Below are positions 7,687 to 37,686 of a stretch of 64,000 nt of DNA, piece by piece. The stretch covers positions 1-64,000 of the forward strand of contig JAGWZE010000001.1 in assembly GCA_018969015.1 (NCBI GenBank), given 5' to 3'. Origin of the DNA: Alphaproteobacteria bacterium (GTDB lineage Bacteria; Pseudomonadota; Alphaproteobacteria; Caulobacterales; Aquidulcibacteraceae). The notes beneath the pieces were generated by a model, which worked only from the letters and a program-made list of their open reading frames with translations, did no database searches and had not been told where the DNA came from. The position numbers were made by a program, and so were the translations under genes. Position 1 is the first letter of the stretch. Each line of letters starts with the position of its first letter.

Positions 7687-7701
7687 CCCGGGCCCCGCGC
7701 G

Positions 7702-8499: not shown

Positions 8500-8522
8500 G
8501 GTGCACCTCCCTGTGCGATCGC

Positions 8523-13087: not shown

Positions 13088-13144
13088 CCGCGCGCACGTT
13101 TGCGCGATCGCCTCGAGATCGCGACCGTTCGCAGGCCCTGCCGG

Positions 13145-14094: not shown

Positions 14095-14098
14095 GGAG

Positions 14099-14290: not shown

Positions 14291-14644
14291 TTCGACCTCC
14301 TCGCAAAGCATGAGCCGAGTGTCGCGATATGGAGCCCAACGCGCGAACTCGGCGCCGGGGCGCAGTGTGCGTCTGCGTGTTTTCGTCGCGCACCGTCCAC
14401 CAGTCAGATAGCGCGGGCCGCACGGCTGGCCGGATAGTGGCTGCGAGCCGGTGATCCATCGCGCCGACAACACGTGTCGATCGCGAAAATCCCAAGCAAT
14501 TATCGTTCGGAAACGCTGCGCTTCCGCCAAGGTAGCGCTTCGGCGCACGCTGATATTGACTTTGATTATCGAAAACAAAATCCCACACAGAGAATGTTGT
14601 CGTGACGCCGGACTTCGGAAGATAGTAAATCCATCGAAGTCGCG
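14291..14644 (+). other. Divergent intergenic region between the usp unit and kinase copy 2
   Basis: About 350 bases. It becomes A+T-rich from about 14490 onward, consistent with promoters firing both ways. I find no FNR, EcfG or CtrA consensus in it; TTGACTTTGATTAT at 14556-14569 only resembles an FNR half-site. Confidence 0.5.
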
Positions 14645-20652: not shown

Positions 20653-20666
20653 TTGATTTTTGTCAA
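20653..20666 (+). promoter_or_regulatory. FNR/FixK-type box upstream of the pel locus
   Basis: TTGAT-TTTT-GTCAA fits TTGA-N6-TCAA and differs by one base from TTGAT-N4-ATCAA. Its centre is about 65 bases before the ATG of the first pel gene, in the divergent region shared with mgtA. A regulator with the cognate ETVSR recognition helix is encoded at 36931. Confidence 0.65.
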
Positions 20667-20724: not shown

Positions 20725-23700
20725 ATGGCAAGCCAATTCGGCGACATCACCCTCGACGGCTCTCTCCTCGACTGGTCGGCGGCCGATCTTTTGTGGAGCG
20801 CGGGAACGCAGCGCATCTACGGAAAGGTCGTCGGGAACGCGATGGTGTTCGCCGCGACGGGCGTCACGCCCGGCAGCACCTTCTGGCTGAACACGGACCT
20901 CAACGCGACGACGGGCTATCTGCTCGGCGGCCCGACGAATTCGGCCTTCGCCGCCGGCGCGGAGTTCAATGTGGACTTCACGACGGGCCAACCGTTGCTG
21001 TTCACGGGCGGCGCCGGACAAACGCTCGTCGGCCCCATCGACTTCGCACTCGGCGCCAATGGCGCCGTGGAGTTCGCCGTGCCGCTCACTGCGGTCGCTG
21101 CAAGCGCTGCGATGGTGCGTGTCGATCTCGGCAATACGCAGTTCCTTCCCAATACGTTCGCGATCGCCGCCGCCCCGGCGCAGCCCCCAACGTTTGGCGC
21201 AGTCACGCTTGATGGCGCGCTCTCGGACTGGTCTGCGGCGAATCGTCTGGATACGGGCGCATCCGGCGTCGCGGGGTACGAGCTGTATGGCCGCTTCGAG
21301 GGCGGCGCCTATGTGTTCGCGATCAAATCTGCGACGCCGATCGGCGAGAACACCACGCTCTGGCTCAATACTGATCAGAACCGCGCGACCGGGTATCAGA
21401 TTTTCGGGTTCGCGGGCGGCGCCGAATACAACGTCAATATCGGGGCGAATGGCCAGGCCGTACTCTTTACCGGCGCGGCCGGACAAAACCCGGTCTCGAT
21501 CGTTCCGATCAGCTACAGCGCCGATCGCACCGTCGCGGAGATCGCGGTCCCGGTCTCGCTCTTGGCCGGGGCGCCGAGCGTGGTCAACGTCTATGCCGAC
21601 GTGAACAACCAGACGTTCCTGCCCAACAGCTACACGACCTACACCTATACCGTTTCCAGCGTGGCGCCCCCGCCGACGCCCGGCGCGAGCTACGGCTCCA
21701 TCACCATCGACGGCGCATCGACGGATTGGACCGCGGCCGATCGGCTCGACGCGGTTGGCGGCGCGACGGGCTACGCTCTGTACGGAAAGGTCGTCGGCGG
21801 CGCGTTCGTGCTCGCGCTTGACGCCGGAACCGGAACGATCGGCCCCAACACCACCTTCTGGTTCAACACCGACCAGAACACCGCGACGGGATACAAAGTC
21901 TTCGGCTTCGCCGTCGGGGCCGAGTTCAACGTCAATTTCGACGCCAACGGCACGCCCGCCCTTTATGTCAACGGCGCGGGCGAAACGCTGCTTCCGGGCG
22001 CCGCGATCGACTGGCGCACGTCCGCATCCCACAGCTTCGTGGAATTCGCCATTCCCCTGGCGCAACTCCAGGCGCTTATCGGATCCACCCCGACGACCGC
22101 GAACGTCTATGTCGACGTCAACGACCAGACCTTCATTCCGGTCAGCTACACGAACTTCGCCTATACGCTCCACGCGAGCACGGCGCCGACGGCCGGGACC
22201 ACGATCCTGGACGGGTCGCTCAACGACTGGACGCAGCGCGATCGCCTCGACACCGCCTTCGGCGCCGTGGCGGGTCATGAGGTGTACGGACGCAGCGACG
22301 GGGATTACCTCGTCTTCGCGGTGAAAGCGCCGGGCCCCATCGGCGCGAACACGACCATCTGGCTGAACACGGATCTCAATGCCGCGACCGGCTTCCAGAT
22401 TTTCGGCGCCACCGGCGGCGCGGAGTTCAACATCAATTTCGACGCCGCCGGCGTGCCGCATCTCTACACGGGCGGCGCAGGCCAGACCCTCGTCGCGGGC
22501 GCGCAGGTGCTCTACGGGACGTCAGCGGATCACACGATCGTCGAAGTGGCCGTCGCCAAGGCCGCCCTGGGAGGCGCGACCTCGAGCAATGTCCTTCTCG
22601 ACGTGAACGACACGGTGTTCCTGCCGTCGAGCTATTTTGGTCCGCAGTTTCTCGTCGCGCCGCCGCCACCGCCGGTCGGCTCCGTGACGCTCGACGGCGC
22701 GCTCGGCGATTGGACGGCGGCGAACCGCATCGATCTGCCGGGAACGGGTGTTGCGGGATACGAAGTCTATGGCCGCGCCAGCGGCGACTCTTTCGTCCTG
22801 GCGCTCAAGAGCCCCGTCGCGATCGGCCCCGGCACCACCTTCTGGCTCAACGCCGACCAGAATCCCGCGACCGGCTATCAGGTGTTCGGCAATGCCGGGG
22901 GCGTGGAGTTCGCGGTCGAGTTCGGCGCGAACGGCGCGCCCGCGCTCTACGCCGTCAACGCGACGACCGGCGCGCTGACGCTCGTGAATGGCGCGCTTCT
23001 GAACGGCTTCTCCGCCGATCGAACGATCGTGGAGTTCGCGATCCCGAAGGCGCAAGTCAGCGCGCCGATCGAGCTGAACGTCCTCATCGACGTCAACAAC
23101 ACGACGTTCCTGCCCACGTCCTATACGGGCATGGCCTCTTACGAGATCGTCGATACGCTCTCTCTGCCGCCGCGGACGGACTTCACCCGCAAGGTCGCCA
23201 TCGTCTATTCGGACACGACCGCCGCCAAGTATTTCGGCCTCGCGGATGTCGACGCCAACAAGACGGGCTATTCCCAGCTCTTCATGACGGCGCAAAGCCA
23301 AGCGGCGGCCGCCGGCGTCCCCTACGACGTCATCAGCGAAAGCGATCTGACGAACCTCACCAAGCTCGCGCAGTACGACGCCATCGTGTTTCCGTCGTTC
23401 CGCTATGCGCCCTCCGCGCTCCAGAACCAGATCGCGAACACGCTCGAACTTGCCGCCGAGCAGTATCACGTCAGCCTGATCGCCGCCGGCGACTTCATGA
23501 CGAACGACGAGACCGGCGCGCTGATCGCCGGCGATCCCTACGCCCGCATGAAAGCGCTGTTCGATCTCACCCGCGTCGATGGCGGGACCGGGATCGTCGA
23601 CGTCAACGCCAGCGCGACGACCAATCCCGTGATGGAGGGGTATCAAGCCGGCGAATTGATCCGGCGCTACGCGGGCGCGCTCGGCACGGGCGTCGGGTGG

Positions 23701-26607
23701 TCAGCCTACGCCGACGCGACCCCCAGCGCCGGCCCCGCGCAAACGACCCTGGCGACGCAGACGATCAACGGCCGGTCCTTCAGCGCGGTCGTCGCCTCCG
23801 AGCCCGGCGGACGCAACGTGCATTTCGCAACCGAAGCGCTGCTCGGCGACAACAACCAGCTCCAGCACGCCATCGATTGGGCGGTGAATGGCGCGGGCGT
23901 CACGGCCGGCGTGCAGCTCAGTCGCGACAAGAGCATCCTCGCGTCGCGCACCGACATGGACCAGGCCATGGAGCTGGCCGATGTCTCGCCCCCCGGCGGC
24001 GGCCCTGGAATCTATGATCGCCTGTTGCCGATCCTCCAGGCGTGGAAGGACCAGTACAATTTCGTTGGATCGTACTTCGTCGACATCGGCGCCAACCCCG
24101 CGAACGATCAGGCGACGAACTGGGCTGTATCCGGGCCGATCTATCAAAAGATCATGGCGATGGGGAACGAGATCGGCACGCACACCTTCACGCACCCGGA
24201 CGATACGAACCTTCTCTCCCCCGCCGACATCGAATTCCAGTTCAACCAGAGCCAACTCCTTCTGGAGCAACAGCTGGGCGTACCGATCAACGGCGCCGCC
24301 GTGCCGGGCGCGCCGGAACGCCTGCCCACCTCCCTGCGCGAGATCCAGTACTTCGACTATCTGACCGGCGGCGGCTCGCTCGTCGGCGCGGGATATCCCG
24401 GCGCGTTCGGCTATCTCACGCCCGGCGTCCAGGACAAGGTCTATCTCGCGCCGAACATGAGCTTCGATTTCACGCTCGTCGGCTTCCAGGGAAAAACCGC
24501 CGATCAGGCCTATGCGGCGTGGCTCTCCGAGTTCAACGCGCTGACGGCGCACGCTGATACGCCCGTCGTGATCTGGCCGTGGCATGATTATGGCCCGACG
24601 ACGTGGAGTGTCGATCAGGGCGTCCCCTCGCCCTATACGCTGGCGATGTACACGAACTTCATCGCCGCCGCGGCGGCCTCCGGCGCCGAGTTCGTCACCA
24701 TGACGGATCTCGCGAAGCGGATCGAATCCATGGAAAAGGTCGGTCTGACGCTGTCCGTTTCCGGCAACATCGTCACGGCCAAGGTCGTGTCCGCGGATGC
24801 GGGCAAGTTCGCGCTTGATCTCGATCACCTTGGAACATCCGTCATCAAGAGCGTCCTGAACTGGTACGCCTATGACGGCGACAGCGTGTTTCTCCCGAAG
24901 AACGGCGGTGATTTCACGATCACGCTCGGCGCCGCGGCCGACGACGTGACCCACATCACCGCATTGCCGGCGCGCGCCGAGCTGATCTCATTGTCCGGGG
25001 ACGGCGCCAATCTCGCCTTCAGCGTCGTGGGCGAAGGCAAGGTCATCATCGACCTCAAGGGCGCGACGCCCGCAAGCGTCACCGGGGCCTCCATCGTGAG
25101 CCAGGTCGGCGATATCCTCACGATCGACCTCGGCGCGAATGGCGCCCACAGCGTTTCGATCGGCGTTCCGACCACGCCCGTCATCACGTCGAACGGCGGG
25201 GGCGCCACGGCGCAAGTCTCGATCGCGGAGAACACGACGAGCGTCACGACGATCACCGCGCTTTCGCCCACGGGTCTGCCGCTCACCTATTCGATCAGCG
25301 GCGGCGCCGACGCGGCGGCGTTCGTCATCAACAGCGCCACCGGGCAGCTTTCGATGGCGGTCGCGCCAGACTACGAGGCGCCAACCGACACCGGCGCCAA
25401 CAATGTCTATGACCTGATCGTCCGCGCAACCGACCAGGCCGGCGCCTTCGTAGCCCAGGCGATCGCCGTCGCCATCACCAACGTGCCGGGCCTCACGCTC
25501 ACGGGCAACGCATCCGCCAATGTCCTCACCGGCAGCGGTGAGGAAGACATCATCAGCGGCGGCGCCGGCAACGACACGCTCGACGGCCTCGGCGGCCCGG
25601 ATCGTCTGACCGGCGGAACCGGCGCCGATCGCGTCCTCGGCGGGGATGGCGCGGACACGTTCATCTACGCGATCGGCGACGGCGCCGACACCATGGACGG
25701 CGGCGCCGGCATCGATACGCTGATCGTCTCCGGCACGGCGGCCAGCGACACGCTCAACGTGATCTATGCGGGCGGCGTCCTCACGACGCTGGAGGGCGGT
25801 ACGCTGACGGGAATCGAGATCGTCACGGCCGATCTCGGCGCCGGCGCCAACACGATCACCTACGCCGGCACGCTCGTCGGCGTCAGCGTCAATCTCGCCA
25901 CCGGGGCGGCCTCGGGGTTTCAGTCGATCGCCAACATCTCGAACGCCACGGGCGGCAGCGGCGATGATCAGCTCACGGGGACGACGGCGGCCAATACGTT
26001 GACGGGCGGCGCGGGAAACGACGTGCTCGACGGCGGTGGCGGCGTCGATACGCTGATCGGCGGCGCAGGTGACGACACCTACATCACGGATGGCGGCGAC
26101 ACGCTCACCGAAGGCACGGGCGCCGGAACCGACACCGTGCGCAGCTCCGTGAGCTGGACGCTCGGCGCGAACTTCGAGAACCTTGTGCTGACGGGCGCGG
26201 CCAACATCAACGGCACGGGCAACGGCCTCAACAACGTCCTGACCGGAAACGCCGGCGCCAACGTCCTGACCGGCGGCGGCGGCAATGACCGGATCGACGG
26301 CGGCGCCGGCAACGACACGCTCAATGGCGGCACGGGCAGCGACACGTTCGTTCTCCAGGCCGGATTCGGCGCCGATACGATCACCGGCGGCTTCGACGCC
26401 AACCCAACCGGCGGCCAGGATCTGATCGACATCTCCGCCTACCATCTGACGCCCGCCGACATCGGCACGACGAGCGCCTTCGCGGTGTGGATCGAAGTCG
26501 TCGCCAACAACACGCTCGTCCATATCGGCGCGGACGTCCTCACCATCCTCGGCGTGAACGGGGTCGGGACGAATGCGATCACGTCGAGCGATTTCATTCT
26601 CGCCTGA
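20725..26607 (+). CDS. pelA: PelA-like polysaccharide deacetylase fused to carbohydrate-binding-like repeats and RTX repeats
   Basis: 1960 residues, ATG at 20725, no signal peptide. Residues 5-805 hold five repeats of about 150-165 residues, each with 'DGxLxDWxxAxR', 'TTFWLNTDQNxATGYQ' and 'VDVNNxTFLPxSY', resembling CBM9/DOMON-type sandwiches. About 820-1060 is a flavodoxin-like fold as in the PelA 'reductase-like' domain. About 1065-1340 is a NodB-type deacetylase with DxD (Asp1077, Asp1079), HTFTH (His1153, His1157) and 'PVVIWPWHDYGP'. A beta region, a cadherin-like repeat (about 1485-1590) and RTX blocks of GGxGxDxL type (about 1591-1880) follow. The RTX end without a Sec signal implies type I secretion; no exporter genes are in the window. 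The PelA hydrolase domain is absent and is encoded separately at 33793. Confidence 0.85.
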   Translation: MASQFGDITLDGSLLDWSAADLLWSAGTQRIYGKVVGNAMVFAATGVTPGSTFWLNTDLNATTGYLLGGPTNSAFAAGAEFNVDFTTGQPLLFTGGAGQTLVGPIDFALGANGAVEFAVPLTAVAASAAMVRVDLGNTQFLPNTFAIAAAPAQPPTFGAVTLDGALSDWSAANRLDTGASGVAGYELYGRFEGGAYVFAIKSATPIGENTTLWLNTDQNRATGYQIFGFAGGAEYNVNIGANGQAVLFTGAAGQNPVSIVPISYSADRTVAEIAVPVSLLAGAPSVVNVYADVNNQTFLPNSYTTYTYTVSSVAPPPTPGASYGSITIDGASTDWTAADRLDAVGGATGYALYGKVVGGAFVLALDAGTGTIGPNTTFWFNTDQNTATGYKVFGFAVGAEFNVNFDANGTPALYVNGAGETLLPGAAIDWRTSASHSFVEFAIPLAQLQALIGSTPTTANVYVDVNDQTFIPVSYTNFAYTLHASTAPTAGTTILDGSLNDWTQRDRLDTAFGAVAGHEVYGRSDGDYLVFAVKAPGPIGANTTIWLNTDLNAATGFQIFGATGGAEFNINFDAAGVPHLYTGGAGQTLVAGAQVLYGTSADHTIVEVAVAKAALGGATSSNVLLDVNDTVFLPSSYFGPQFLVAPPPPPVGSVTLDGALGDWTAANRIDLPGTGVAGYEVYGRASGDSFVLALKSPVAIGPGTTFWLNADQNPATGYQVFGNAGGVEFAVEFGANGAPALYAVNATTGALTLVNGALLNGFSADRTIVEFAIPKAQVSAPIELNVLIDVNNTTFLPTSYTGMASYEIVDTLSLPPRTDFTRKVAIVYSDTTAAKYFGLADVDANKTGYSQLFMTAQSQAAAAGVPYDVISESDLTNLTKLAQYDAIVFPSFRYAPSALQNQIANTLELAAEQYHVSLIAAGDFMTNDETGALIAGDPYARMKALFDLTRVDGGTGIVDVNASATTNPVMEGYQAGELIRRYAGALGTGVGWSAYADATPSAGPAQTTLATQTINGRSFSAVVASEPGGRNVHFATEALLGDNNQLQHAIDWAVNGAGVTAGVQLSRDKSILASRTDMDQAMELADVSPPGGGPGIYDRLLPILQAWKDQYNFVGSYFVDIGANPANDQATNWAVSGPIYQKIMAMGNEIGTHTFTHPDDTNLLSPADIEFQFNQSQLLLEQQLGVPINGAAVPGAPERLPTSLREIQYFDYLTGGGSLVGAGYPGAFGYLTPGVQDKVYLAPNMSFDFTLVGFQGKTADQAYAAWLSEFNALTAHADTPVVIWPWHDYGPTTWSVDQGVPSPYTLAMYTNFIAAAAASGAEFVTMTDLAKRIESMEKVGLTLSVSGNIVTAKVVSADAGKFALDLDHLGTSVIKSVLNWYAYDGDSVFLPKNGGDFTITLGAAADDVTHITALPARAELISLSGDGANLAFSVVGEGKVIIDLKGATPASVTGASIVSQVGDILTIDLGANGAHSVSIGVPTTPVITSNGGGATAQVSIAENTTSVTTITALSPTGLPLTYSISGGADAAAFVINSATGQLSMAVAPDYEAPTDTGANNVYDLIVRATDQAGAFVAQAIAVAITNVPGLTLTGNASANVLTGSGEEDIISGGAGNDTLDGLGGPDRLTGGTGADRVLGGDGADTFIYAIGDGADTMDGGAGIDTLIVSGTAASDTLNVIYAGGVLTTLEGGTLTGIEIVTADLGAGANTITYAGTLVGVSVNLATGAASGFQSIANISNATGGSGDDQLTGTTAANTLTGGAGNDVLDGGGGVDTLIGGAGDDTYITDGGDTLTEGTGAGTDTVRSSVSWTLGANFENLVLTGAANINGTGNGLNNVLTGNAGANVLTGGGGNDRIDGGAGNDTLNGGTGSDTFVLQAGFGADTITGGFDANPTGGQDLIDISAYHLTPADIGTTSAFAVWIEVVANNTLVHIGADVLTILGVNGVGTNAITSSDFILA

Positions 26608-26650: not shown

Positions 26651-27964
26651 ATGCTGCGTTTCGTCGTGTCCCCGCTCGTCGCCTTGCTCGCCGCCACGCT
26701 TTTGGCGACGCCAGCGCGGGCGCAATCGCAACACCTGGATGCGCCGCCGCCGATCACCGCAACGAACTCCGCGCAAGCGCCACAGACGAGCGACGCCGAT
26801 CCCCAGGCGCGCCTCGACATTCGCCAGGGCGTCGTCCGTGCACGCGCGTTCCTCGGCCTGCACGACTACCGCAACGCGCGGGCCGAGGTGGCGATCATTC
26901 TGGCCTCCCATCCCGACGAGGTCGGCGCGCTGCGCACGCGCGCCAGCATCGAGGAGGCGACGGGGCGCTGGCGGCAAGCCGCCGTCGATTGGGCGCGCGT
27001 CGCGACTCTCACGGCGGATCCGGCGGCTGCCGCGCGCCGCGACGCGCTCGTGCGCGCCCATCCCTCGTACGCCGGCCTCACCGGCTTCTTCGAGGGCTCC
27101 TCGGGCGCCGACGAAATGAGCGGCGTTCGCTTGACTTTCGCGCGCCGTCCTCTCGACGCGCCGGAATGGACCGCCGCGCTCGAGCACCGATCCGCCCACG
27201 CCGATCAGGCCACGCGCCTCGATGGATCCATCGGCCCCATCGAAACGAGTAGGCGCAAGCTCGACGTCGAGGTCGCTGACACGCTCGTAGCCGGGCGCGT
27301 TGGCCTCCGCCTCGTCGCCACCGACGACACACTCGGCGCGGGCGCGAGCTTCCGCCGCCTCCGCCCCTGGGGATTCGTCGAGGCGAGCGCCATGTACCAC
27401 GACCCCTACTGGCCCTACGCCGCCGCGCTCGCGAGCGACGCGACGTCGGATCATGTCGACTTTGGCGCCGACGTGACCCGTGGGCGTTGGTCCGTGCGCG
27501 GTCGTATCGGCGTCGCGACCTACGCTGTCGACGGCGAAGACGACGTTGCGCGATCCACGAGGGGCGCGCTGGCCATGGAGTACGCGTTCGGGGACCGCAC
27601 CGCGCCTGCGCCGTGGCGGCTTACGCTTGCCTTGGATCGGGAGGCGTTCTTCGCCGTCAAGCGCCGGCCGGGACCGGGCGGCGCGCCCTTCGCCCCGATC
27701 GACGTGGCCGACCGCTTCATTCTCTCCGCGGGGACGGCGAAAACCTTCGGCGATCCGGACCGACGACATTCCACGATCGCCTTCGGCTATCGCCGTGACA
27801 CCGAGAACGACACCCAGGGCCCGTATGGCTTCATCCTCACGGAAACGCCGATCGGCTCCAACGTCCGCCTTGGGTTGCGCGCCGAGTACAGCGACGTCGC
27901 GACGCGCGGCGTCTCCACCCAGCCCTATGGGTTCGCCGAAATCTACCTTCGAAGGACATTTTGA
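26651..27964 (+). CDS. pelB: PelB-type outer-membrane beta-barrel with short TPR-like start (stand-alone)
   Basis: 437 residues. The ATG at 26651 gives a clear signal peptide (MLRFVVSPLVALLAATLLAT, cut after PARAQ) with an AAGAGGA ribosome site. Residues about 45-135 are a short helical TPR-like stretch ('ARAFLGLHDYRNARAEVAII'). The rest alternates as an outer-membrane barrel and ends in 'EIYLRRTF', with the terminal Phe of a BAM signal. 'RDTENDTQGPYG' and repeated Arg/Glu/Asp strands suit a charged export pore. In Pseudomonas, PelB is one protein of about 1200 residues: a long periplasmic TPR followed by a barrel. Here the barrel is separate, and a TPR protein is encoded at 34709. Its place directly after pelA and before pelD supports the assignment, although family similarity is remote. 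Confidence 0.72.
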   Translation: MLRFVVSPLVALLAATLLATPARAQSQHLDAPPPITATNSAQAPQTSDADPQARLDIRQGVVRARAFLGLHDYRNARAEVAIILASHPDEVGALRTRASIEEATGRWRQAAVDWARVATLTADPAAAARRDALVRAHPSYAGLTGFFEGSSGADEMSGVRLTFARRPLDAPEWTAALEHRSAHADQATRLDGSIGPIETSRRKLDVEVADTLVAGRVGLRLVATDDTLGAGASFRRLRPWGFVEASAMYHDPYWPYAAALASDATSDHVDFGADVTRGRWSVRGRIGVATYAVDGEDDVARSTRGALAMEYAFGDRTAPAPWRLTLALDREAFFAVKRRPGPGGAPFAPIDVADRFILSAGTAKTFGDPDRRHSTIAFGYRRDTENDTQGPYGFILTETPIGSNVRLGLRAEYSDVATRGVSTQPYGFAEIYLRRTF

Positions 27965-27970
27965 CGCCGC

Positions 27971-27984
27971 TTGATCTTGATCAA
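27971..27984 (+). promoter_or_regulatory. Perfect FNR/FixK-type box in the pelB-pelD gap
   Basis: TTGAT-CTTG-ATCAA is an exact match to the FNR/FixK consensus, sitting in the 28-base gap between the barrel gene and pelD. It could place pelDEFG under a second, internal low-oxygen-type promoter, in which case the translation start of pelD may be the ATG at 28020 or 28086. Confidence 0.65.
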
Positions 27985-27992
27985 GCCCGGCG

Positions 27993-28970
27993 ATGCCCCC
28001 GACGTTCAGTGAATTCTCCATGGAATCCTCGAACGCTCCGTTTTCGGACTTTTCCTCACCTTCCAGCTCGCTTCGGCGCTGCGCCATGGAGATCGGCGTT
28101 TCGCTCGCCGTCCTCGTCGCTCTCGACCGGCTCGTGTTCCACGGCGCGCTTGCGACGCTCGCCCCGCATCCGTTCTGGATCATCGTCCTGTTCGCCGCGG
28201 TCCAGTATGGCGCCTGGGGCGGGGCGATCGGCGCGGCGGCGGCCTCCCTCGCGCTGTACGCCCGCGGCGTCCCTCACCGCGGCGCCGAGGACTTTTTCGA
28301 GTACACCTCAACGATCCTGGCGCTTCCCGCGATGTGGCTGCTCGCCGCCGTTGCGTTCGGCGGCCTGAGATCGCTTCACATCCGCAAGTTGCGCGCGCTC
28401 GAAGCCCGGCTGGACGAAACTCTGAGTCACGCCAACACCATCGCAACGGGGTTCACCCGCGCGTGCGGGGAAATCAAGCGCCTGGAGGCGCGGATCGCCA
28501 GCGACACCGCAACCGTCAACACGATCATTCGCGACATCGCGGCGATCGGCGCCGGAGGCCGCGACACCGTGCGCCAGAGTCTCTCGGCCTTCGCACAACA
28601 CTGCCTCGGCACACCCAACATCACGATTTGGATCTTCTCGTCTGATCCCGCCGCCGCCGATGGCACGCTCGACGGGCTGGAGCTTTCGCAGGATGTGACG
28701 ACGACGCTGTTCGAGCAGAGGCGGGCGGCCGTGATCGCGGGCCTGCCGGACGATATCGCCGTCGCGGCGCCGATCGTCGCTGCCGACGACATAAGCGGAC
28801 TCCTGATCGTCTGGCGGATCGACGATCTCAGCCCGACCGATGCGGCGCATCTGGGCCGGCGCGCGGAGCTGCTCGGGCTTGCGCTCGGCGTTCTGCTGGA
28901 GCCGCAATTGTCTCCTTCTCCGGTCGTCGCTTTCCACCCCGCCTTCAAGAGGGTTTCGCGTGAGTCCTGA
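27993..28970 (+). CDS. pelD: PelD-like inner-membrane GAF protein without GGDEF domain
   Basis: 325 residues from the ATG at 27993; ATGs at 28020 and 28086 are alternatives, the latter directly before the first membrane segment. Hydrophobic segments at about 32-50, 57-88 and 105-125 are followed by a coiled coil (about 128-170) and a GAF fold (about 178-300). Gene order before pelE and pelF, and this architecture, match PelD, the synthase's regulatory subunit. Pseudomonas PelD is longer and ends in a degenerate GGDEF domain that binds c-di-GMP through RxxD. That domain is missing here. An RIDD tetrad (275-278) sits inside the GAF and is probably fortuitous. If it is PelD, activation must differ from the Pseudomonas scheme. 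Confidence 0.72.
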   Translation: MPPTFSEFSMESSNAPFSDFSSPSSSLRRCAMEIGVSLAVLVALDRLVFHGALATLAPHPFWIIVLFAAVQYGAWGGAIGAAAASLALYARGVPHRGAEDFFEYTSTILALPAMWLLAAVAFGGLRSLHIRKLRALEARLDETLSHANTIATGFTRACGEIKRLEARIASDTATVNTIIRDIAAIGAGGRDTVRQSLSAFAQHCLGTPNITIWIFSSDPAAADGTLDGLELSQDVTTTLFEQRRAAVIAGLPDDIAVAAPIVAADDISGLLIVWRIDDLSPTDAAHLGRRAELLGLALGVLLEPQLSPSPVVAFHPAFKRVSRES

Positions 28971-29859
28971 GCGTTTTCCCTGGGGCGACGTCGCGGCGCT
29001 GGGGGCGCTCGCGGCCGGCCTGAGCCTGATCGACGGTCTCGCCGGGACGATGAGCGCCCGGGGCGCGGCGCCGGAATGGCTTCCTCTCGTGGTGCGCCTC
29101 TCCGCCGCGGCGCTGGCGGCCTGCGCGATCGCCGGCTTCCGGGACGAAAGAACACGCGGACTCGCGTCTCAACTCGCGATTTGGATGGCGATCGCCGGCG
29201 CACTGGGCGCCGCCATCTGGGTCGCCGTCGTCGCCGCGGAGGCCGTCCGCGGCGAACCACGACCGCTCTTCTCAGCGGCGATCGACGCCGAAATCGACGA
29301 CGATCCCGTCGAGGCCCTCGCGGCGATCGCCGGATCGATCCAGGACGGCCGGGTTCGCCTTGACGGCGCGAGCACGGTGCAGCCCCTGTGCGACGTCCTC
29401 GCGGACGCGTCGACCGCATCTCAACTTCGCGCCCTTGCCGCGCTCGCACAGAACTACCACGCCGGCATGGCGCATGCGCTTTCGCTGGCGCTGAGCCGCG
29501 GCCAATCCTCCGTACGCGTTCTTGCAGCCACGGCGCTCGCTAAGCTCAGCCAGAGCTATGGCGCTCGCGTCGACGCACGCGCCGCGCACCCGCCCGCGAC
29601 AACGGCACAATGGGTCGCGCTCGGACAGTCACGGCTTGATTTTGCCCTGTCCGGGCTCTTGAACGACGATCGCCGGTCGACGGTCCTCGAACAGGCCGAA
29701 GTGGCGTTCGCCGCCGCGCTCGCGCTCGATGCAAGCGTCACGTCGGCTCAGGTCGGCGCCGCCGCCAGCCGCCGCGCTCGGCGCACACGCCCTCTCGTCG
29801 CAATTGCCCCACAGCCGAAGCCGGTGTCCACGTTTGGTCAAATGAGGCCCGTGCAATGA
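28960..29859 (+). CDS. pelE: PelE-like membrane protein with helical repeats
   Basis: 299 residues from a GTG at 28960 that overlaps the end of pelD by 11 bases. Three hydrophobic segments lie in the first 105 residues ('AALGALAAGLSLIDGLAG', 'LVVRLSAAALAACAIAG', 'LAIWMAIAGALGAAIWVAVV'), followed by a cytoplasmic helical region with TPR-like alpha-alpha units up to about 280. Pseudomonas PelE has a similar size and plan (membrane helices then TPR) and helps bind PelD, PelF and PelG into the synthase complex. Sequence similarity is weak, so the call rests on order, size and topology. Its TGA overlaps the ATG of pelF (ATGA), indicating coupled translation. Confidence 0.72.
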   Translation: MSPERFPWGDVAALGALAAGLSLIDGLAGTMSARGAAPEWLPLVVRLSAAALAACAIAGFRDERTRGLASQLAIWMAIAGALGAAIWVAVVAAEAVRGEPRPLFSAAIDAEIDDDPVEALAAIAGSIQDGRVRLDGASTVQPLCDVLADASTASQLRALAALAQNYHAGMAHALSLALSRGQSSVRVLAATALAKLSQSYGARVDARAAHPPATTAQWVALGQSRLDFALSGLLNDDRRSTVLEQAEVAFAAALALDASVTSAQVGAAASRRARRTRPLVAIAPQPKPVSTFGQMRPVQ

Positions 29860-31340
29860 CCAGGGCCGACGTCTGCCTGATCCTTGAAGGCGCCTATCCG
29901 TTCGTGGCGGGCGGCGTTTCGGGATGGACGCAAGCGCTGATCGAAGCGGCGCCGCACTTGAGCTTCCACCTCGTTTCGATCATGCCGGATCAGACACCGC
30001 GTGAAGCGAAGTACACCGTCCCGCCCAATGTCGTGGCCTGGACCACGCTCGCCCTCGACAGCGGCGCTCCGGGCCGGCGCGCGACAAGCGCCGATCATCG
30101 CCTCGTCGCCGAGGTCGGCGCGCAGGTGGAATCCCTGATCCTGCGGCCAACGACCAGCGACCTGAACCGGCTCGTGCAAACCCTCGCCGCGAGCAACATC
30201 GGCCAGTCCGCCCTTCTGGACAGTCGCGCCGGATGGCGCGCGATGGAGGCGGCGGCCACGCGGTTTCTTCCGGATGCGCCGCTTCTGGACTTCTTCTGGA
30301 CATGGCGTGTCATGCTGCGCAGCCTGATCGCGATCCTCGGCGCGCCGCTGCCAGATGCCTCCGTCTATCATGCGATCTCGACCGGCTATGCCGGCCTCCT
30401 CGGCGCGCGCGCGGCGCTGACGACCGGACGGCCTTTGGTCCTGACGGAGCATGGAATATACACCAACGAACGACGCATCGAGCTGTGCCTCGCCGACTGG
30501 CTCTACGACACCGGCGCCCAGGGATATTCCATCACCGAGCGCCTGTGCGCCCTGCGCGACTTCTGGACCGCGCTCTTCGCTTCGTTGTCGCGCCTCACCT
30601 ACGATGCGGCCAGCGAGATCGTGACGTTGTATCGTGGCAATCAGGTGCTTCAGCTCGCGGACGGCGCCGCGCCGGACAAGCTGCGCGTGATCCCGAACGG
30701 CGTCGACGTCGCGCGCTGGTCGGCGGTTCGCCGCATCCCGAGCCCCCTTCGCCGCCCCACCATCGCTCTGATCGGCCGGGTGGTGCCGATCAAGGATGTC
30801 CGCACCTTCATCCTTGCCTGCGCCGCGCTCCGCCGGCAGGCGCCGAACCTCGAGGCCTTGATCATCGGCCCCGACGATGAAGATCCCACCTACGCCGCCG
30901 ATTGCCGCAAGCTCGCGCGCGCCGAGGGCTTGGACTCCTGCCTGCGCTTCACCGGTCGCGCCGACGTGGCGTCCTTCCTCCCGCGCATCGACGTCTGTGT
31001 GCTGACGAGCATCTCCGAAGCGCAACCGCTCGTGGTCCTTGAGGCGGGCGCCGCCGGCATCCCGAGCGTGACGACCGATGTGGGATGCTGCCGCGACCTG
31101 ATCGAAGGATCGCCCGGCGACGACGTTACGGGCCACGGCGGGATCGTCACGCCCATCGGCGATTCCGCGATGATCGCGCGGGCTGTGGGGCGCCTGCTGG
31201 CCGACGATGCGTTGCGCCTGCAGATGGGCGAGGTGATGCGCCGTCGCGTCCATCGCTCGTATGACAAGACGCGGATCGACCGGATCTACAATGATCTCTA
31301 CGCCGCCTATCTGTCCGGCGGCGCGGCGAAGGTTGCTTGA
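29856..31340 (+). CDS. pelF: PelF glycosyltransferase (GT4, UDP-GalNAc-type polymerase)
   Basis: 494 residues, very close to PelF of other bacteria. It opens with 'DVCLILEGAYPFVAGGVSGW', the PelF hallmark, and carries 'LTEHGIYTNERRIEL', 'VIPNGVDVARW', 'ALIGRVVPIKDVRTF' and the GT4 EX7E motif 'SEAQPLVVLE' (Glu388, Glu396). It has a GT-B fold without membrane segments or signal peptide and is expected to be cytoplasmic. It should polymerise the Pel chain from UDP-GalNAc/UDP-GlcNAc and pass it to PelG. ATGA overlap with pelE and a single base before the pelG GTG show a tight operon. This is the surest marker that the locus is Pel. Confidence 0.95.
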   Translation: MTRADVCLILEGAYPFVAGGVSGWTQALIEAAPHLSFHLVSIMPDQTPREAKYTVPPNVVAWTTLALDSGAPGRRATSADHRLVAEVGAQVESLILRPTTSDLNRLVQTLAASNIGQSALLDSRAGWRAMEAAATRFLPDAPLLDFFWTWRVMLRSLIAILGAPLPDASVYHAISTGYAGLLGARAALTTGRPLVLTEHGIYTNERRIELCLADWLYDTGAQGYSITERLCALRDFWTALFASLSRLTYDAASEIVTLYRGNQVLQLADGAAPDKLRVIPNGVDVARWSAVRRIPSPLRRPTIALIGRVVPIKDVRTFILACAALRRQAPNLEALIIGPDDEDPTYAADCRKLARAEGLDSCLRFTGRADVASFLPRIDVCVLTSISEAQPLVVLEAGAAGIPSVTTDVGCCRDLIEGSPGDDVTGHGGIVTPIGDSAMIARAVGRLLADDALRLQMGEVMRRRVHRSYDKTRIDRIYNDLYAAYLSGGAAKVA

Positions 31341-31341
31341 G

Positions 31342-32760
31342 GTGGCGGGCATTGGCTTCTCCCTCGAGCGTATGGCGGCGTCCGACGACCTGACGAACGT
31401 GTCGGGGGCCTATGTCGCGGGGATGCTGGTGGTCTCGGGGCCCTGGATCTTCACGGCGCTGGCAATTGCGGGTGTGTCGACGATCGCGGACGCATCGCAG
31501 GCGATGATCCAGGACTTCCGGACCATCCTGATCTACGATTTCCTCCTTTCCAGCATGATCTCGGCGCCGCTCGCCCTTTCGGTCACGCGCTTCCTGGCGG
31601 ATGAACTTTACGCGAAACGGCGCGGCGCGCTGCAGAGCGCCTGGGTCGTCGCAGTGGGACTGTTCGCGCTGATCGGCTCGATCGTCGTGGCTCCCGTTTT
31701 CGGCGTTCTGCTCAAGGGGCCGCTCGCCACGGCGGCCACGACGACGTTCTTCCTCCTCGGCGCCCTGTGGCTGACGATCCCCTTCGCCGGTGTGCTGCGG
31801 CGCCACGTCTCGATCACTGTGGCGTTCCTGGCGGGGATGTCGGTCACGATCGCGCTCGCACACGCTCCGCGCACGCACGATGTCGCCACGCTCCTCAACG
31901 CCTTCAGCGTCGGCCTTGCGGTCGCCGTTGGCGTCCTCGTCATGCGCACCACGGCGGAGTTTGGCGCGTCGGTCAGGTTCGAACCGCGCTTGCTGCGCGC
32001 CTACGCCCGCTACTGGGAGCTGCCGGTCATCGGTCTGTGCACCACGCTTGGCGGCTGGGTCGACAAGATCATCATGTGGGCCAGCGGCGGGAACGGCGTG
32101 GTCACGCTGAGCGCGGGCGGCTTCCCCACGATGCCGGATTATGACTCCGCCCTGTTCTGGGCCCAGCTTACGGCCATCCCGGTCATGGCGGTCTTCTTCG
32201 TCAACGTCGAACCGAGTTTCTACCGGCTCTACCGACGCTTCTACGGATCATTCGGCCGCAAGGCCTCGCAGCGCGAAGTGCGGCTTCGCCAGAAGGCGCT
32301 GGATGACTTTGCAACGAGAAGCGCGCTGGCGCTCCTTGGCGCCGGAATCCTGATCACCGCCACCGCGGTGATCTTCAGCTACGAAGCCGTTGCGCATTTT
32401 GATCTCCAGCCGGGCCTCGCGGGAACGCTGCGCGCAGCGCTGTTCGGCGTCGCGTTCCAGACAGCCGCCCTGGTCTGCCTGTGCTTTCTCCTCTATTTCG
32501 ATCTGCGGCGGCACGCGCTCGCCATCGCTCTCGTCGGCGTCGTGACCAACGCCGGATTCACGCTCGTTCTCCTGCCCTTTGGGCCTGCGCTTCACGGATA
32601 CGGGTACCTGGCTTCGGCGGTGACGACGTTCCTCTTTGCGTTTGCAACGCTCACGCGGGAGACGGCATGGCTCACCTACCACGCCTTCGTCACGACGAAC
32701 GAGTCTGCACGCCCCTCAACGCACGGTGCGCGGAGCGCCGTGCGACCCGATCCGATTTGA
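31342..32760 (+). CDS. pelG: PelG inner-membrane exopolysaccharide transporter
   Basis: 472 residues from a GTG at 31342, one base after the pelF stop. The start is fixed by the family N-terminus, here 'MAGIGFSLERM', followed by 'VSGPWIFTALAIAG'. About twelve hydrophobic segments cover the length, as expected for the MOP/Wzx-like PelG family. 'PDYDSALFWAQLTAIPVMAVFFV' and 'LYRRFYGSF' are typical family stretches. It should form the membrane channel that moves the PelF product to the periplasm. The epimerase gene follows after about 100 bases, so the operon may continue. Confidence 0.94.
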   Translation: MAGIGFSLERMAASDDLTNVSGAYVAGMLVVSGPWIFTALAIAGVSTIADASQAMIQDFRTILIYDFLLSSMISAPLALSVTRFLADELYAKRRGALQSAWVVAVGLFALIGSIVVAPVFGVLLKGPLATAATTTFFLLGALWLTIPFAGVLRRHVSITVAFLAGMSVTIALAHAPRTHDVATLLNAFSVGLAVAVGVLVMRTTAEFGASVRFEPRLLRAYARYWELPVIGLCTTLGGWVDKIIMWASGGNGVVTLSAGGFPTMPDYDSALFWAQLTAIPVMAVFFVNVEPSFYRLYRRFYGSFGRKASQREVRLRQKALDDFATRSALALLGAGILITATAVIFSYEAVAHFDLQPGLAGTLRAALFGVAFQTAALVCLCFLLYFDLRRHALAIALVGVVTNAGFTLVLLPFGPALHGYGYLASAVTTFLFAFATLTRETAWLTYHAFVTTNESARPSTHGARSAVRPDPI

Positions 32761-32861
32761 CATAGCGCAATCTCGCACCGTTCGCGTCCCCTATCGTCGC
32801 GCGGCTGGCGACCTTCCCGTCCGGGGCCGGTCGTTCGATCAGCAAAGCGGATTTCCCGGTC

Positions 32862-33848
32862 ATGGCGCGATTTCTTGTTACGGGCGGGGCAGGCTTCATC
32901 GGGTCTCATCTGGTCGATGACCTTCTGCGGAACGGGCACGACGTGCGGGTTCTGGACAATCTGTCCACGGGCTCTCGCCAGAATGTTTCTCCGGATGCGG
33001 AGTTTCTCTTTGCGGACGTTCGTGACGCCGAGGCGGTCCGCGCCGCCATGGCAGGCGTCGACGGCTGCTTCCATCTCGCGGCGATCGCTTCGGTCCAGGC
33101 CGCCAACACCGATTGGTTCGGCACACACCAGACCAACCTCAGCGGCGCCGTCGCCGTCTTCGAGGGCGCCCTGCGCGCCCGTCAAGGCCCTCTCCCCGTC
33201 GTCTACGCTTCGTCCGCGGCGGTCTACGGCGAGGCTCGGCGCCATCCGCTGACGGAGCGTGCGCCGACGCGTCCGATCACCGCCTATGGCGCGGACAAGC
33301 TGGGATGCGAGCTCCACGCCGCCGCCGCCGCGAGGACGCATGGCGTGAGCACCGTCGGGCTGCGCTTCTTCAACGTGTACGGGCCGCGCCAGGACCCGCG
33401 ATCGCCCTATTCCGGCGTCATCTCGATCTTCGCCGAGCGTCTCCTGCGCGGCCTGGGCGTCACGATCTTCGGCGATGGCGCGCAGACGCGCGACTTCGTA
33501 TTCGTGGGCGACGTCTGCAAGGCGCTCCAGGCGGCGATGCACGGCGCTTCATGTGGCCGTTCGCTCGTGTTCAATGTCTGCACGGGGCGAGAGACGGCCG
33601 TTCGTGATCTCGCCGACACGATCGCCCGGCTCACGGGCGCGCGCAGCGCGCTCGCGTTCGCGCCGCCGCGCGCAGGGGACATCCACCGATCCGTCGGCGA
33701 TCCGTCCTATCTGGCGCGTGTCCTCGGCGTGTCGCCTTCAACACCGATCGAGACGGGCCTTGTCGAAACCCTGAGCTGGATGGCGAACACGCATGCCTCC
33801 TCTGCCGAACCCCTCCCCGTCGCCGCGCGCAATCCTGTCGCGGCGTAG
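32862..33848 (+). CDS. NAD-dependent UDP-hexose(amine) 4-epimerase, PelX-like
   Basis: 328 residues. Extended SDR with 'TGGAGFIGSHLV', 'DNLSTGSR', 'YASSAAVYGE' and the catalytic pair in 'AYGADKLGCE' (YxxxK), and 'RFFNVYGPRQDP', all typical of GalE/Gne/WbpP epimerases. Within a Pel locus the fitting role is interconversion of UDP-GlcNAc and UDP-GalNAc to supply PelF, as PelX does in Pseudomonas protegens. Substrate choice between Glc/Gal and GlcNAc/GalNAc forms cannot be settled by eye. The 3' end overlaps the next gene by 56 bases, supporting co-transcription. Confidence 0.85.
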   Translation: MARFLVTGGAGFIGSHLVDDLLRNGHDVRVLDNLSTGSRQNVSPDAEFLFADVRDAEAVRAAMAGVDGCFHLAAIASVQAANTDWFGTHQTNLSGAVAVFEGALRARQGPLPVVYASSAAVYGEARRHPLTERAPTRPITAYGADKLGCELHAAAAARTHGVSTVGLRFFNVYGPRQDPRSPYSGVISIFAERLLRGLGVTIFGDGAQTRDFVFVGDVCKALQAAMHGASCGRSLVFNVCTGRETAVRDLADTIARLTGARSALAFAPPRAGDIHRSVGDPSYLARVLGVSPSTPIETGLVETLSWMANTHASSAEPLPVAARNPVAA

Positions 33849-34719
33849 CCTGATGGGCCTTGCCGGTCTGTTGGGGCTGGGCCTTCGTGCAGCGCCGGCC
33901 GCGGCGCGCCAAACGCCGGGCGCGCGGCGACGCATTCCAAGCGATATCGCGTGGGCCGCATACTACGGATCGATGGCGCCGCCGGACGCCTTCGGCGCCT
34001 ACGCGCTCGTCGTTCTCGATCCCAATTACCCCTTTCCCATAACCGACGTGACCGCATGCGGCGCGATGGCGCTCGGGTATGTCTCGGTCGGCGAGTTCAG
34101 CACGACGGGCCGCTTCGCGCCGCAGCTTGCAGACACGAGCCCCCTCGTGAAGGAGAACCCGAATTGGCCCGGCAGCTTCGTCGTCGACGTGCGGTCGCCG
34201 TCCTGGCGACGATTCATTGTCGAGACGGTCACGCCGCAGGTGCTTGCGCAGGGCTTCACCGGGATCTTTCTCGACACGCTGGATTCGGCGTTGCACCTGG
34301 AGGAACTGGAGCCTGACCGCTACCGTGGCATGCGGACAGCCGCCGTTTCGCTCCTCGCCGCGATCCGAGCGCGGTATGGCGACATCCCGATCATGATGAA
34401 CCGCGGCTATCCGCTCCTGCGCGACGTCGATACGATCATCGATGCGGTGCTCGCCGAAAGTCTCGTGACGACCTACGACTTCGCGACACGGCGTTACGGC
34501 CTCGCGACAGACGACGCCGTCGCCAGCCACGCCGCGCTTCTCGATCCGGCACGCACGGCTAGTCCGCCTTTGCCCGTCTTCAGCCTCGACTACTGGGATC
34601 CCGAAGACATCGACGGTGTCCGCGCAATCTACGCCCGCGAACGCGCGATGAACCATACGCCTTATGTCGGCACGATCCTGCTGGATCGTGTCCTTCCGGA
34701 GCCCCCTCGTGGCGCGTGA
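33793..34719 (+). CDS. Stand-alone PelA-type glycoside hydrolase (GH114/GH166-like) with Tat signal
   Basis: 308 residues. The ATG at 33793 gives a twin-arginine signal ('LSRRSLMGLAGLLGLGL' then APAAARQ); a start at 33853 would remove the arginines. The mature part is a TIM barrel with 'GYVSVGEFS', 'GFTGIFLDTLDSA', 'MMNRGYPLLRDV' and 'AVLAESLVTTYDF', which closely parallel the hydrolase domain of PelA. Glu222 in 'AESL' corresponds to the residue I recall as catalytic in PelA. Related domains cut alpha-1,4-galactosaminidic bonds. In Pseudomonas this domain is fused to the deacetylase; here it is separate and should be exported folded to the periplasm. Its end overlaps the next GTG. Confidence 0.85.
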   Translation: MPPLPNPSPSPRAILSRRSLMGLAGLLGLGLRAAPAAARQTPGARRRIPSDIAWAAYYGSMAPPDAFGAYALVVLDPNYPFPITDVTACGAMALGYVSVGEFSTTGRFAPQLADTSPLVKENPNWPGSFVVDVRSPSWRRFIVETVTPQVLAQGFTGIFLDTLDSALHLEELEPDRYRGMRTAAVSLLAAIRARYGDIPIMMNRGYPLLRDVDTIIDAVLAESLVTTYDFATRRYGLATDDAVASHAALLDPARTASPPLPVFSLDYWDPEDIDGVRAIYARERAMNHTPYVGTILLDRVLPEPPRGA

Positions 34720-36667
34720 ATCCACTCTCCCTACAGCTTGGCCCCTGCACACCTTGGCGTTGGCGGTGGCGACTGCAGCGCTGGCCGGAATCCTGACGGT
34801 CTCGCTCGTTCCCTCCCGCATGGAGCAGCGCGCCGTCGCCATGCGCGAAGCGACGATGCGGGCGGACACGGCCTATGCGAACAACCGCCCGCGCGAAGCG
34901 ATGGAGATCCTTCGCGCCTCGCCGGAGTCACGGCGGCCCGGAGCGGACTATATGCGGGCGATGCTGCGCTACCTGGGCGCCGCGGGCGACGTCGATGCAC
35001 ACTTCGCGCTGCTTCACGGATCGTTCGGCCGGTACGCCTCGCCGCGCGACCTCCGCTCCGCCATCGATCTCTACACGCGACGCAACCGGCCGGCCCTCGT
35101 CGTCGAGACGCTGCGCGATCTCGTCGCGCTCGACGCCGCCGCGCCGGACGAAATGCTCCGGCTGGCGCGGGCCCTCGCCGATCGCGGCGACACGATCGGC
35201 GCCGCCACGCTGGCCCGCCGGCTGGCGCCGGGCCTCCGCCCGGGCGACACCCCGGCCGATGGCGTTTTTCTCATCAAAGCTCTGGCGGCGGCGGGTGACG
35301 TCGACGCCGCGCGGCGGTTCGCGCAGCGCTGGCTTGGACCAAGCGTCGCTACATCCGTTGTGCTCGCCGTCGCACCGGCGATCGTGGAAGCCGGACATGC
35401 CGATATCGCGGTCGAGGTGCTGCGGCCGCGCGCGCAGGACTCACCGAAAGCCCAGGCCGCGCTGGACTACGCGCTGCGTGTGGCGGCATCGACAAACCCA
35501 GAGATCCGCGGGGAGCTCACACGCGGCCTCCTTGCGGCACGCGCGCACGCCACGGGAGCGTCGCGCACGGTCATCGCGCACGACCTCTTCGCCTATGGCG
35601 ATTTCGATCTCGTGCGCGCCACGATGACCCGTGACGGGTCCTGGCGTGAGCCGCCCGAGCGCGACGCCTTCATCGCAGCCATGCGCGCGCATGGCCAGGC
35701 TCCAGCGCTCCGCGATCTCCTGATCGCCGAAGCACGAGCGGGGAGCGTCGAGAAGCAACGCCGCACCGCGCGCGACCTCGCCGCGATCGGGTTCCCTGCG
35801 GCGGCATGCGCCGTTCTCGCCCAGGCCGCCGCCCGCACCGGGCCGGACAGCCCCGCGACGCAGGACCTGCTGTACCTCTGGCGCGCGCACGGCATCGCCC
35901 CCGATACGGAATGGCTCAAGGCGCAAATCGAAGGCGGCGACGACGGCGAGGCCGCGCGCTGGGTGCAACGCTTCGCCGAAGCCACCTCCACGGACGCCGC
36001 GCTTGCGCTTCTCGCGCGCCTCGACACCGCGAGGTCGCGCCCGTCTCTGGCCGTGCTCCGTACACGGTTCCTGGGCTGGCGCGGTCCGTCCCCGGAACTC
36101 CGCGCCGTTCTAGACGCCGCCGTCAGACTGCCGTTGACGCCCGGTGAGGCCGGAGAGCTGCTTTCTATCGCGTGCGCCGTCGGAGACGACGACGCCGTGC
36201 GCGCGCTTGCAGTGACCGTTGGACCGCCGCGCACGTCGGCCGCCCGCTCGTGCCGTGCGCGCGTCGCGCTCGAAGCCGCGCACGCGGCCCAGCGTCGCGG
36301 CGCCCTTGACGCAGCCGTTGCGGGCTACCGCGAGGCCGCCAGCTTCGCGCCGCTCGGAAGCCGCGACCTGTTCGACTTTGCCTCCGCACTCGAACCGTCG
36401 AGCGCGCTGGCGGCGCAGGACATGTACCGATTGGCGCTTGCCCGCCTTCCGCGCCCGGAGCAGCCGCCCAAACCGCACACGGAAGTTCTGCGGGCGGCGC
36501 TCCTCGTCCGGCTTGGCCATCCGCGCGAGGCGCAGGCCGCTCTCGAACAGCTCGTCGCCAGCAACGCGGACAATGCCGAACTCCGCACGGTCCTGGCCGA
36601 GATTTACGTCGATTCCGGAGCTTACCGATCGGCGCTCGCGCTGACGCGCCCGCAAGCGCCACACTGA
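34709..36667 (+). CDS. Membrane-anchored TPR protein, stand-alone PelB TPR region
   Basis: 652 residues from a GTG at 34709 that overlaps the hydrolase stop, with GGAG eight bases upstream. One uncleaved hydrophobic helix (about 13-33, 'ALAVATAALAGILTVSLV') should anchor it in the inner membrane with the remainder in the periplasm. The rest is a long alpha-solenoid of TPR-type units, for example 'TAYANNRPREAMEILRASPE', 'LARALADRGDTIGAATLARR' and, near the end, 'LLVRLGHPREAQAALEQLVA'. Pseudomonas PelB starts with just such an anchored TPR, which binds PelA and leads polymer to the barrel. Here no barrel follows. With the barrel gene at 26651 it appears to form a split PelB. Confidence 0.75.
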   Translation: MARESTLPTAWPLHTLALAVATAALAGILTVSLVPSRMEQRAVAMREATMRADTAYANNRPREAMEILRASPESRRPGADYMRAMLRYLGAAGDVDAHFALLHGSFGRYASPRDLRSAIDLYTRRNRPALVVETLRDLVALDAAAPDEMLRLARALADRGDTIGAATLARRLAPGLRPGDTPADGVFLIKALAAAGDVDAARRFAQRWLGPSVATSVVLAVAPAIVEAGHADIAVEVLRPRAQDSPKAQAALDYALRVAASTNPEIRGELTRGLLAARAHATGASRTVIAHDLFAYGDFDLVRATMTRDGSWREPPERDAFIAAMRAHGQAPALRDLLIAEARAGSVEKQRRTARDLAAIGFPAAACAVLAQAAARTGPDSPATQDLLYLWRAHGIAPDTEWLKAQIEGGDDGEAARWVQRFAEATSTDAALALLARLDTARSRPSLAVLRTRFLGWRGPSPELRAVLDAAVRLPLTPGEAGELLSIACAVGDDDAVRALAVTVGPPRTSAARSCRARVALEAAHAAQRRGALDAAVAGYREAASFAPLGSRDLFDFASALEPSSALAAQDMYRLALARLPRPEQPPKPHTEVLRAALLVRLGHPREAQAALEQLVASNADNAELRTVLAEIYVDSGAYRSALALTRPQAPH

Positions 36668-36930: not shown

Positions 36931-37686
36931 ATGATCGAGGGCGTCGACCTGGGTTTTTCGGTCATTCGTCTTTCCGGAAAAACGGCCGCCGGGCATGCAG
37001 GCGGTGACGACGCCGGCGGATCGGCAGACGCTTCCGCCTCTCCCCTGCAGGTCCTTCAGACGCATGCGCCGCATGTCGTGCGCGTGGCGCCGGCCGGGCG
37101 TCATCTGTCGATGGAAGGGGTCCCCATGGGGCACATTCTCGGCGTCCTTTCCGGCACGCTACGGTGCTTCCGCATGACCGCGGACGGCCGCCGTCACATC
37201 TCGCGGTTTTCTGTCGCAGGGGACATCATCGGGCTTTGCCCGCTTGGTGTGCCGCGGCACTCCACGGAAGCGATCAATGACGCGCGGATCGCGTTCTTCC
37301 GGGTCGACACGATCGAGGCCGCGCTTCGTACGAACGATCTCGTGCGCGACGCGATCATGAATGCGCTCGCCCTCGAGCTGAACGACGGCGCGCGTTCCCA
37401 GACGCGCTTGGGCTGCTTCAGCGCCGAACAGCGCGTCGCAGACTTTCTGCTCGGCATTCCAAACGCAGCAACCTCGTCCTGCACCATCGAGATGCCGCGC
37501 GCCGACATCGCCGATCATCTCGGGATCACGATCGAAACCGTGAGCCGCGCCCTCAACCGCTTCGCGAAGATGGGCCTCATCGAGCTCACGAATCCTCACC
37601 AGTTCCGGATCCCGAGCGCGTCGCGCCTGCGCCGCCTCATCCAGGGAGATTCGTTCGAGGCGGGCGGCCTTCGCGGGGCGGGATAA
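36931..37686 (+). CDS. Crp/Fnr-family (FixK-like) transcription regulator
   Basis: 251 residues. An unusual Gly/Ala/Asp-rich N-terminus of about 45 residues precedes the cyclic-nucleotide-binding-like barrel ('PAGRHLSMEGVPMGHILGVL', 'FSVAGDIIGLCPLG'). The dimer helix is followed by a winged HTH with 'PRADIADHLGITIETVSRAL'. The ETVSR recognition helix is the FNR/FixK form that reads TTGA...TCAA. The N-terminal cysteine cluster that holds the oxygen-sensing Fe-S centre in FNR is absent, so it is FixK-like and would need another input, such as a two-component system. It lies directly downstream of the pel locus, which holds two such boxes; control of pel is inferred. Confidence 0.88.
   Translation: MIEGVDLGFSVIRLSGKTAAGHAGGDDAGGSADASASPLQVLQTHAPHVVRVAPAGRHLSMEGVPMGHILGVLSGTLRCFRMTADGRRHISRFSVAGDIIGLCPLGVPRHSTEAINDARIAFFRVDTIEAALRTNDLVRDAIMNALALELNDGARSQTRLGCFSAEQRVADFLLGIPNAATSSCTIEMPRADIADHLGITIETVSRALNRFAKMGLIELTNPHQFRIPSASRLRRLIQGDSFEAGGLRGAG

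Follow-up and report, generated by a model that had tools for sequence, protein, structure and literature searches.

The window (the whole 64,000 nt stretch of DNA analyzed) carries a pel cluster in which the PelD-like protein lacks the GGDEF domain, and the final gene of this cluster encodes a FixK-like regulator of the CRP/FNR family. Exact TTGAN6TCAA boxes are found upstream of two of the pel cluster genes. The preferred reading, with a probability of about one half, is that a dedicated FixK-like activator was gained when a pel cluster of the GGDEF-less type was acquired horizontally, and that it sets pel transcription. Pel serves as a model for polymer synthesis under c-di-GMP gating. With a widespread natural class that has no receptor domain, here in a host still encoding GGDEF proteins, the role of PelD in the absence of its ligand and the other means of switching synthesis can be studied directly, and the FixK-like factor with its boxes at two pel promoters forms one concrete predicted circuit that can be tested. 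In the open-licence literature no report was found of a FixK/FNR-type pel regulator or of a GGDEF-less alphaproteobacterial PelD.

The cluster is assigned to pel by the presence of both PelF and PelG (Pfam, NCBIfam). Its genes are as follows.

20725–26607, + strand: 1960 aa RTX-deacetylase protein; it combines a polysaccharide-deacetylase segment with RTX repeats and a match to cadherin
26651–27964, + strand: TPR protein; both its position and its weak matches in GGDEF-type loci make it PelB-like
27993–28970, + strand: PelD-like protein with transmembrane, coil and GAF parts, without GGDEF; the true start is perhaps 28020 or 28086
28960–29859, + strand: PelE-like protein; the longest open reading frame starts at 28840
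29856–31340, + strand: PelF glycosyltransferase (NCBIfam PelF, 437 bits, cut-off 100)
31342–32760, + strand: PelG exporter (Pfam PelG, 297 bits)
32862–33848, + strand: GalE-like sugar epimerase
33793–34719, + strand: GH114-family hydrolase, a putative counterpart of the PelA hydrolase; the start is perhaps 33973
34766–36667, + strand: TPR protein
36931–37686, + strand: CRP/FNR-family FixK-like regulator, 251 aa, the last gene of the cluster

The RTX-deacetylase protein also carries repeated N-terminal modules. It may be a secreted substitute for the PelA deacetylase.

The regulator displays a cNMP-type sensor domain followed by a Crp helix-turn-helix domain with the E-x-x-S-R helix of the FixK/CRP-FNR group (Pfam: HTH_Crp_2, 2.1e-16; Crp, 4.4e-9; cNMP_binding, 7.7e-8). 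The recognition helix is ITIETVSRAL. The best PDB match is FixK2 (4i2o, E = 5.5e-20), and the best NCBIfam model is FixK at 87.4 bits; this is below the equivalog cut-off of 300, thus the protein is termed FixK-like and is not filed as FixK. The initial annotation had described the regulator as FixK-like, with an ETVSR helix, and as lacking N-terminal Fe-S cysteines. The Pfam, NCBIfam and PDB matches agree with the first statement, and the cysteine positions with the second: the only cysteines are at residues 79, 103, 162 and 184, so that the FNR-type N-terminal cluster is absent.

FixK2 of Bradyrhizobium diazoefficiens shares the CRP/FNR fold and the ETVSR helix with the regulator. PMC9104804 gives the FixK2 box as TTGA/C-N6-T/GCAA and describes a role of C183. 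The window protein differs in several respects. In an alignment with 4i2o it has a proline in the column of the redox-active Cys183. In a tree of 37 CRP-type rows it belongs to a separate subfamily, grouping with L019–L021 of its own taxonomic family (SH-aLRT 94) and apart from both FixK2 and the L148 FixK-like protein that adjoins FixJ-like genes. A full-length FixJ ortholog was not found in the genome, where the best match is 39% and covers the receiver part only (the FixJ proteins of two relatives are 65% alike). Lastly, the regulator gene is located with pel.

Another FNR-type protein, SinR of Agrobacterium tumefaciens, drives biofilm maturation, and in that organism FnrN alone is predicted to carry an Fe-S cluster, according to the portion of PMC4018554 cited here. 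It differs from the window regulator in that the same portion reports its biofilm targets as unsettled and gives no location in a pel cluster.

The genome encodes two strong Crp-type HTH proteins. The second one (in L003) has the helix SREKVNRKL, and three weaker matches were judged by eye to be AsnC-, ArsR- and other HTH proteins. Thus the pel-linked regulator is the sole FNR/FixK-type reader found in the genome. Its gene lies 4.2 kb past pelG, after a 263 bp gap, and it could act on genes other than pel.

Five GGDEF proteins are encoded in the genome, thus c-di-GMP is probably made by the host. This would fit a relocation of c-di-GMP sensing to the CRP-type regulator or to another Pel subunit. 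Precedents are Bcam1349, reportedly a CRP/FNR-family c-di-GMP effector for biofilm, and Clp, said to be a CRP-type c-di-GMP effector. Such a relocation is nevertheless quite improbable here, as the closest solved relative of the regulator is FixK2, which is not known as a c-di-GMP binder, and no entry named Clp is present among the 20 PDB matches at E 0.001.

The predicted binding boxes, none of which is assigned a strand, are located at three gene starts.

20653–20666: exact TTGAN6TCAA box TTGATTTTTGTCAA, 58 bp upstream of the RTX-deacetylase ATG
27971–27984: perfect extended box TTGATCTTGATCAA, in the gap between the TPR gene and pelD
32757–32770: degenerate box of the FixK2 type, TTGACATAGCGCAA, which overlaps with the end of pelG and lies 91 bp upstream of the epimerase gene

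The third was scored on the FixK2 consensus TTGM-N6-KCAA, taken from PMC9104804. In the window the exact pattern is present twice where 0.18 is expected, and two copies were reached in three of 100 shuffles. The sequence TTGATNNNNATCAA is found once in the window, at position 27971, and in none of 100 shuffles. The pelD box is also the only match in the genome to the 12-base palindrome TTGATCNNGATCAA (0.015 expected by base composition). At the outset, the only two strong boxes found had been placed in the pel locus. The window does contain exactly two exact boxes, both at pel, but the FixK2-type box upstream of the epimerase gene had been missed, and uniqueness does not extend to the genome, where 11 exact sites occur and only the match to TTGATCNNGATCAA is confined to the pelD box.

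The 20653 box lies in a gap shared with a divergent gene for a cation P-type ATPase (17832–20153, − strand), at 499 bp from the called ATPase start. No box was found upstream of the regulator gene itself, and inspection of the box flanks by eye showed no clear −10 element.

The 11 exact sites in 3.40 Mb compare with 7 for a reversed control pattern, and the looser FixK2-type box gives 77 sites versus 141 for its control. Thus the motif is not clearly enriched across the genome; what is enriched is the clustering at pel, with P = 0.0014 for two of the 11 exact boxes and P = 0.008 for three of the 77 FixK2-type boxes within 17.5 kb, both for a stretch that was picked post hoc. Nine of the 11 exact genomic boxes are outside of called genes. 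Conservation of the boxes across pel loci was considered as support and was rejected: in the 79 other loci with PelD, the 390 bp upstream of the PelD open reading frame never contain an exact box, and the box closest to a pelD start, in L112, is 395 bp upstream of it. The 79 loci contain 28 exact boxes in 22 loci, about 9 being expected from base composition alone. The lack of near-pelD boxes elsewhere means that conservation provides no footprint.

The small genomic excess (11 versus 7) and the lack of conservation of the pelD boxes in other loci would both suit a regulator that is a chance neighbor, serving other genes while the pel boxes are coincidental and pel is constitutive. This is rather unlikely, since two exact boxes and one FixK2-type box stand at gene starts of a single cluster and the corresponding site in relatives does not have the regulator. 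Relatives conserve the flank made up of rpsA, cmk, aroA and the FYDLN gene (the last is in five of six fetched stretches). Beyond this flank neither the regulator nor pel was found in the six stretches, two of which end within 3 kb.

In the preferred reading, the FixK-like factor would have arrived with the GGDEF-less pel cluster or have been captured by it. A dimer of the regulator would bind TTGAN6TCAA upstream of the RTX-deacetylase gene and pelD, perhaps also upstream of the epimerase gene, and once bound would most likely activate both transcription units; it is proposed that Pel output is thereby set by transcription. The membrane and GAF parts of PelD would serve as a scaffold for PelEFG, with synthesis presumably no longer gated by c-di-GMP binding.

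The absence of GGDEF from the PelD-like protein, already noticed in the initial annotation, is confirmed by three approaches. A GGDEF domain with RXXD was not found in the window PelD with an HMM of the long-PelD C-terminal domain, with Pfam or in an AlphaFold2 model. In a 45-row PelD alignment Pfam detects GAF_3 in 25 rows and PelD_GGDEF in two, and no domain in the window PelD. The model, from a 32-row alignment, has a mean pLDDT of 82.5 and a pTM of 0.54; it displays N-terminal helices and a long coil (helices at residues 23–47, 61–72, 74–90 and 101–187), followed by a mixed fold up to residue 306. Comparison of the model with the PDB gives weak matches, mostly to GAF domains (best E = 9.8e-4), while a PDB sequence search with the window PelD gave no match. 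The canonical layout of transmembrane helices, coiled coil and GAF is therefore retained, the transmembrane part by homology and the coil and GAF parts by the model. Pseudomonas aeruginosa PelD has the same three elements; unlike the window protein, it also has a degenerate GGDEF domain, which binds c-di-GMP at an RXXD site (PMC8461298).

A PelD without GGDEF is also found in streptococci (class IV). For this protein no c-di-GMP binding is expected, and its control is reported as still to be determined (PMC7112168, PMC12345266). The streptococcal PelD differs in the addition of a degenerate SDR domain and in its Gram-positive hosts, which have no known cyclases, whereas the host of the window cluster has GGDEF proteins.

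The domain loss was followed in 86 pel loci, of which six yielded no PelD. The C-terminal-domain HMM matches 45 of the 80 PelD proteins and misses 35; L110, L113 and L127, which are doubtful or partial, were dropped, and L052, one of those without an HMM match, was classed as GGDEF on the basis of its RefSeq name. This results in 45 GGDEF and 32 GGDEF-less (short) loci out of 77, a proportion which is not a census because the 80 genome loci are those closest to the window PelF. On the 86-row PelF tree the GGDEF/short label needs at least six changes, five of them forced by starred branches; label shuffling requires a mean of 24.8, and none of 500 shuffles is as low as the observed number. The window PelF is in a clade of nine rows, all short (support 100), with Methylobacterium, Bradyrhizobium, Roseiarcus and others. 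This clade is nested in a PelF clade of 25 rows, of which 24 are short and one is unlabelled (SH-aLRT 86, from a quick search).

The domain loss is thus more widespread than the window regulator, given that 24 of the 32 GGDEF-less loci are in this one clade. A phmmer search of the 80 genome loci with the window regulator finds a homolog within about 10 kb in only four (L055, L063, L115 and L123). These are far less similar (30–44 bits) and are on other branches of the CRP tree; a wider HMM adds L061. Relatives in the clade are GGDEF-less without the window regulator, which was thus not required for the domain to be lost. The loss looks older than the regulator, or at least independent of it, and the PelF tree does not support the regulator as the cause of lost c-di-GMP control.

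At the family level pel is detected in one of 60 searched genomes; at the order level one genome in 299 scores over the cut-off, and at the class level 21 genomes out of 385 have pel. Because of this scarcity the cluster is likely to have been horizontally acquired.

The signal to which the regulator responds can be approached through its three nearest orthologs, which are 39%–46% alike (L145, L146 and L147). The L145 ortholog adjoins genes for USP, carbonic anhydrase, SOD, ribonucleotide reductase and hemerythrin, the L146 ortholog a RIC-like gene (by eye), and the L147 ortholog Rrf2 and phosphoketolase genes. By analogy with these neighborhoods, the leading guess for the signal is low oxygen or a redox cue. 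The L145 locus, which has the closest ortholog (46%), contains six exact boxes in 19 kb where 0.15 is expected, a number reached in none of 200 shuffles; the span of these boxes, positions 6583–16065, is a ready-made candidate regulon. L147 has one exact box, a number reached in 20 of 200 shuffles, and L146 has no exact box.

It was initially suggested that transcription by an oxygen-linked factor may have replaced post-translational c-di-GMP control of Pel. A factor that ties pel specifically to low oxygen, and thereby takes over from c-di-GMP, is doubtful. Its membership in the FixK-like family, the stress, hemerythrin, Rrf2 and phosphoketolase genes next to the L145 and L147 orthologs, and the presence of the cbb3 oxidase gene ccoN in the genome are in its favor. 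Against it, the regulator has neither Fe-S cysteines nor Cys183, a full-length FixJ ortholog was not found in the genome, and the genome-wide list of exact TTGAN6TCAA boxes has none near ccoN. The oxygen link as first proposed is therefore a possibility only. Of the proposed replacement, the FixK-like regulator, the boxes at pel promoters and the GGDEF-less PelD stand; the replacement itself is weakened by the spread of GGDEF loss over a broad alphaproteobacterial clade whose other members lack the window regulator.

Other regulatory genes are also found near GGDEF-less pel loci. Of 30 GGDEF-less loci, 10 have a LuxR- or CRP-type gene at most 4.2 kb from pel, compared with none of 42 GGDEF loci (Fisher 0.0001), in counts that omit five loci without a PelG match and with regulator HMMs derived mainly from GGDEF-less loci. 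The figures for alphaproteobacteria only are 10 of 29 and 0 of 21. All positive loci are in the main clade and none of the seven other GGDEF-less loci is positive, so that the contrast is confounded with clade, and a comparison by independent pairs has no power to decide. Within the GGDEF-less loci, regulator density does not differ between near and far regions (10 in 227 kb versus 5 in 196 kb, p = 0.44). An initial count with single-sequence seeds gave 9/32 versus 5/45 within 2.5 kb (p = 0.07) and 12/32 GGDEF-less versus 6/45 GGDEF loci within 5 kb (p = 0.03); this weaker contrast is due to the counting of receiver-domain and LysR genes as well. An unbiased Pfam scan points in the same direction, with GerE in 8 of 61 neighbors of GGDEF-less loci and outside of the 25 most frequent families (i.e. 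at most two of 150) among 150 of the 151 neighbors of GGDEF loci. The enrichment of regulators near GGDEF-less pel is suggestive only.

Two other genes show a similar distribution. Homologs of the L050 export protein (polysaccharide biosynthesis/export family in RefSeq) are present in 12 of 32 GGDEF-less loci and in one of the 45 others, and homologs of the deacetylase part of the RTX deacetylase are near 9 of 32 (the window counted) versus one of 45. From this excess, the GGDEF-less loci may represent a distinct pel type. Tentatively, and at well below even odds, a large alphaproteobacterial pel class may have dropped post-translational c-di-GMP gating, often swapped in a different export protein and a secreted RTX deacetylase, and repeatedly recruited regulators of its own (LuxR-type, CRP/FNR-type of several kinds and, in the window, FixK-like), such that Pel would answer transcriptional signals in place of c-di-GMP.

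A homolog search of the window shows no L050-type export protein; the TPR protein occupies the place of PelB. The export-protein homologs are at L049–L051, L053, L055, L056, L061, L063, L114, L118, L122 and L130. Elsewhere in the window, two long CheB-CheR-PAS-HWE kinase proteins of shared architecture are encoded nearly in tandem, at positions 9947–13087 and 14660–17854.
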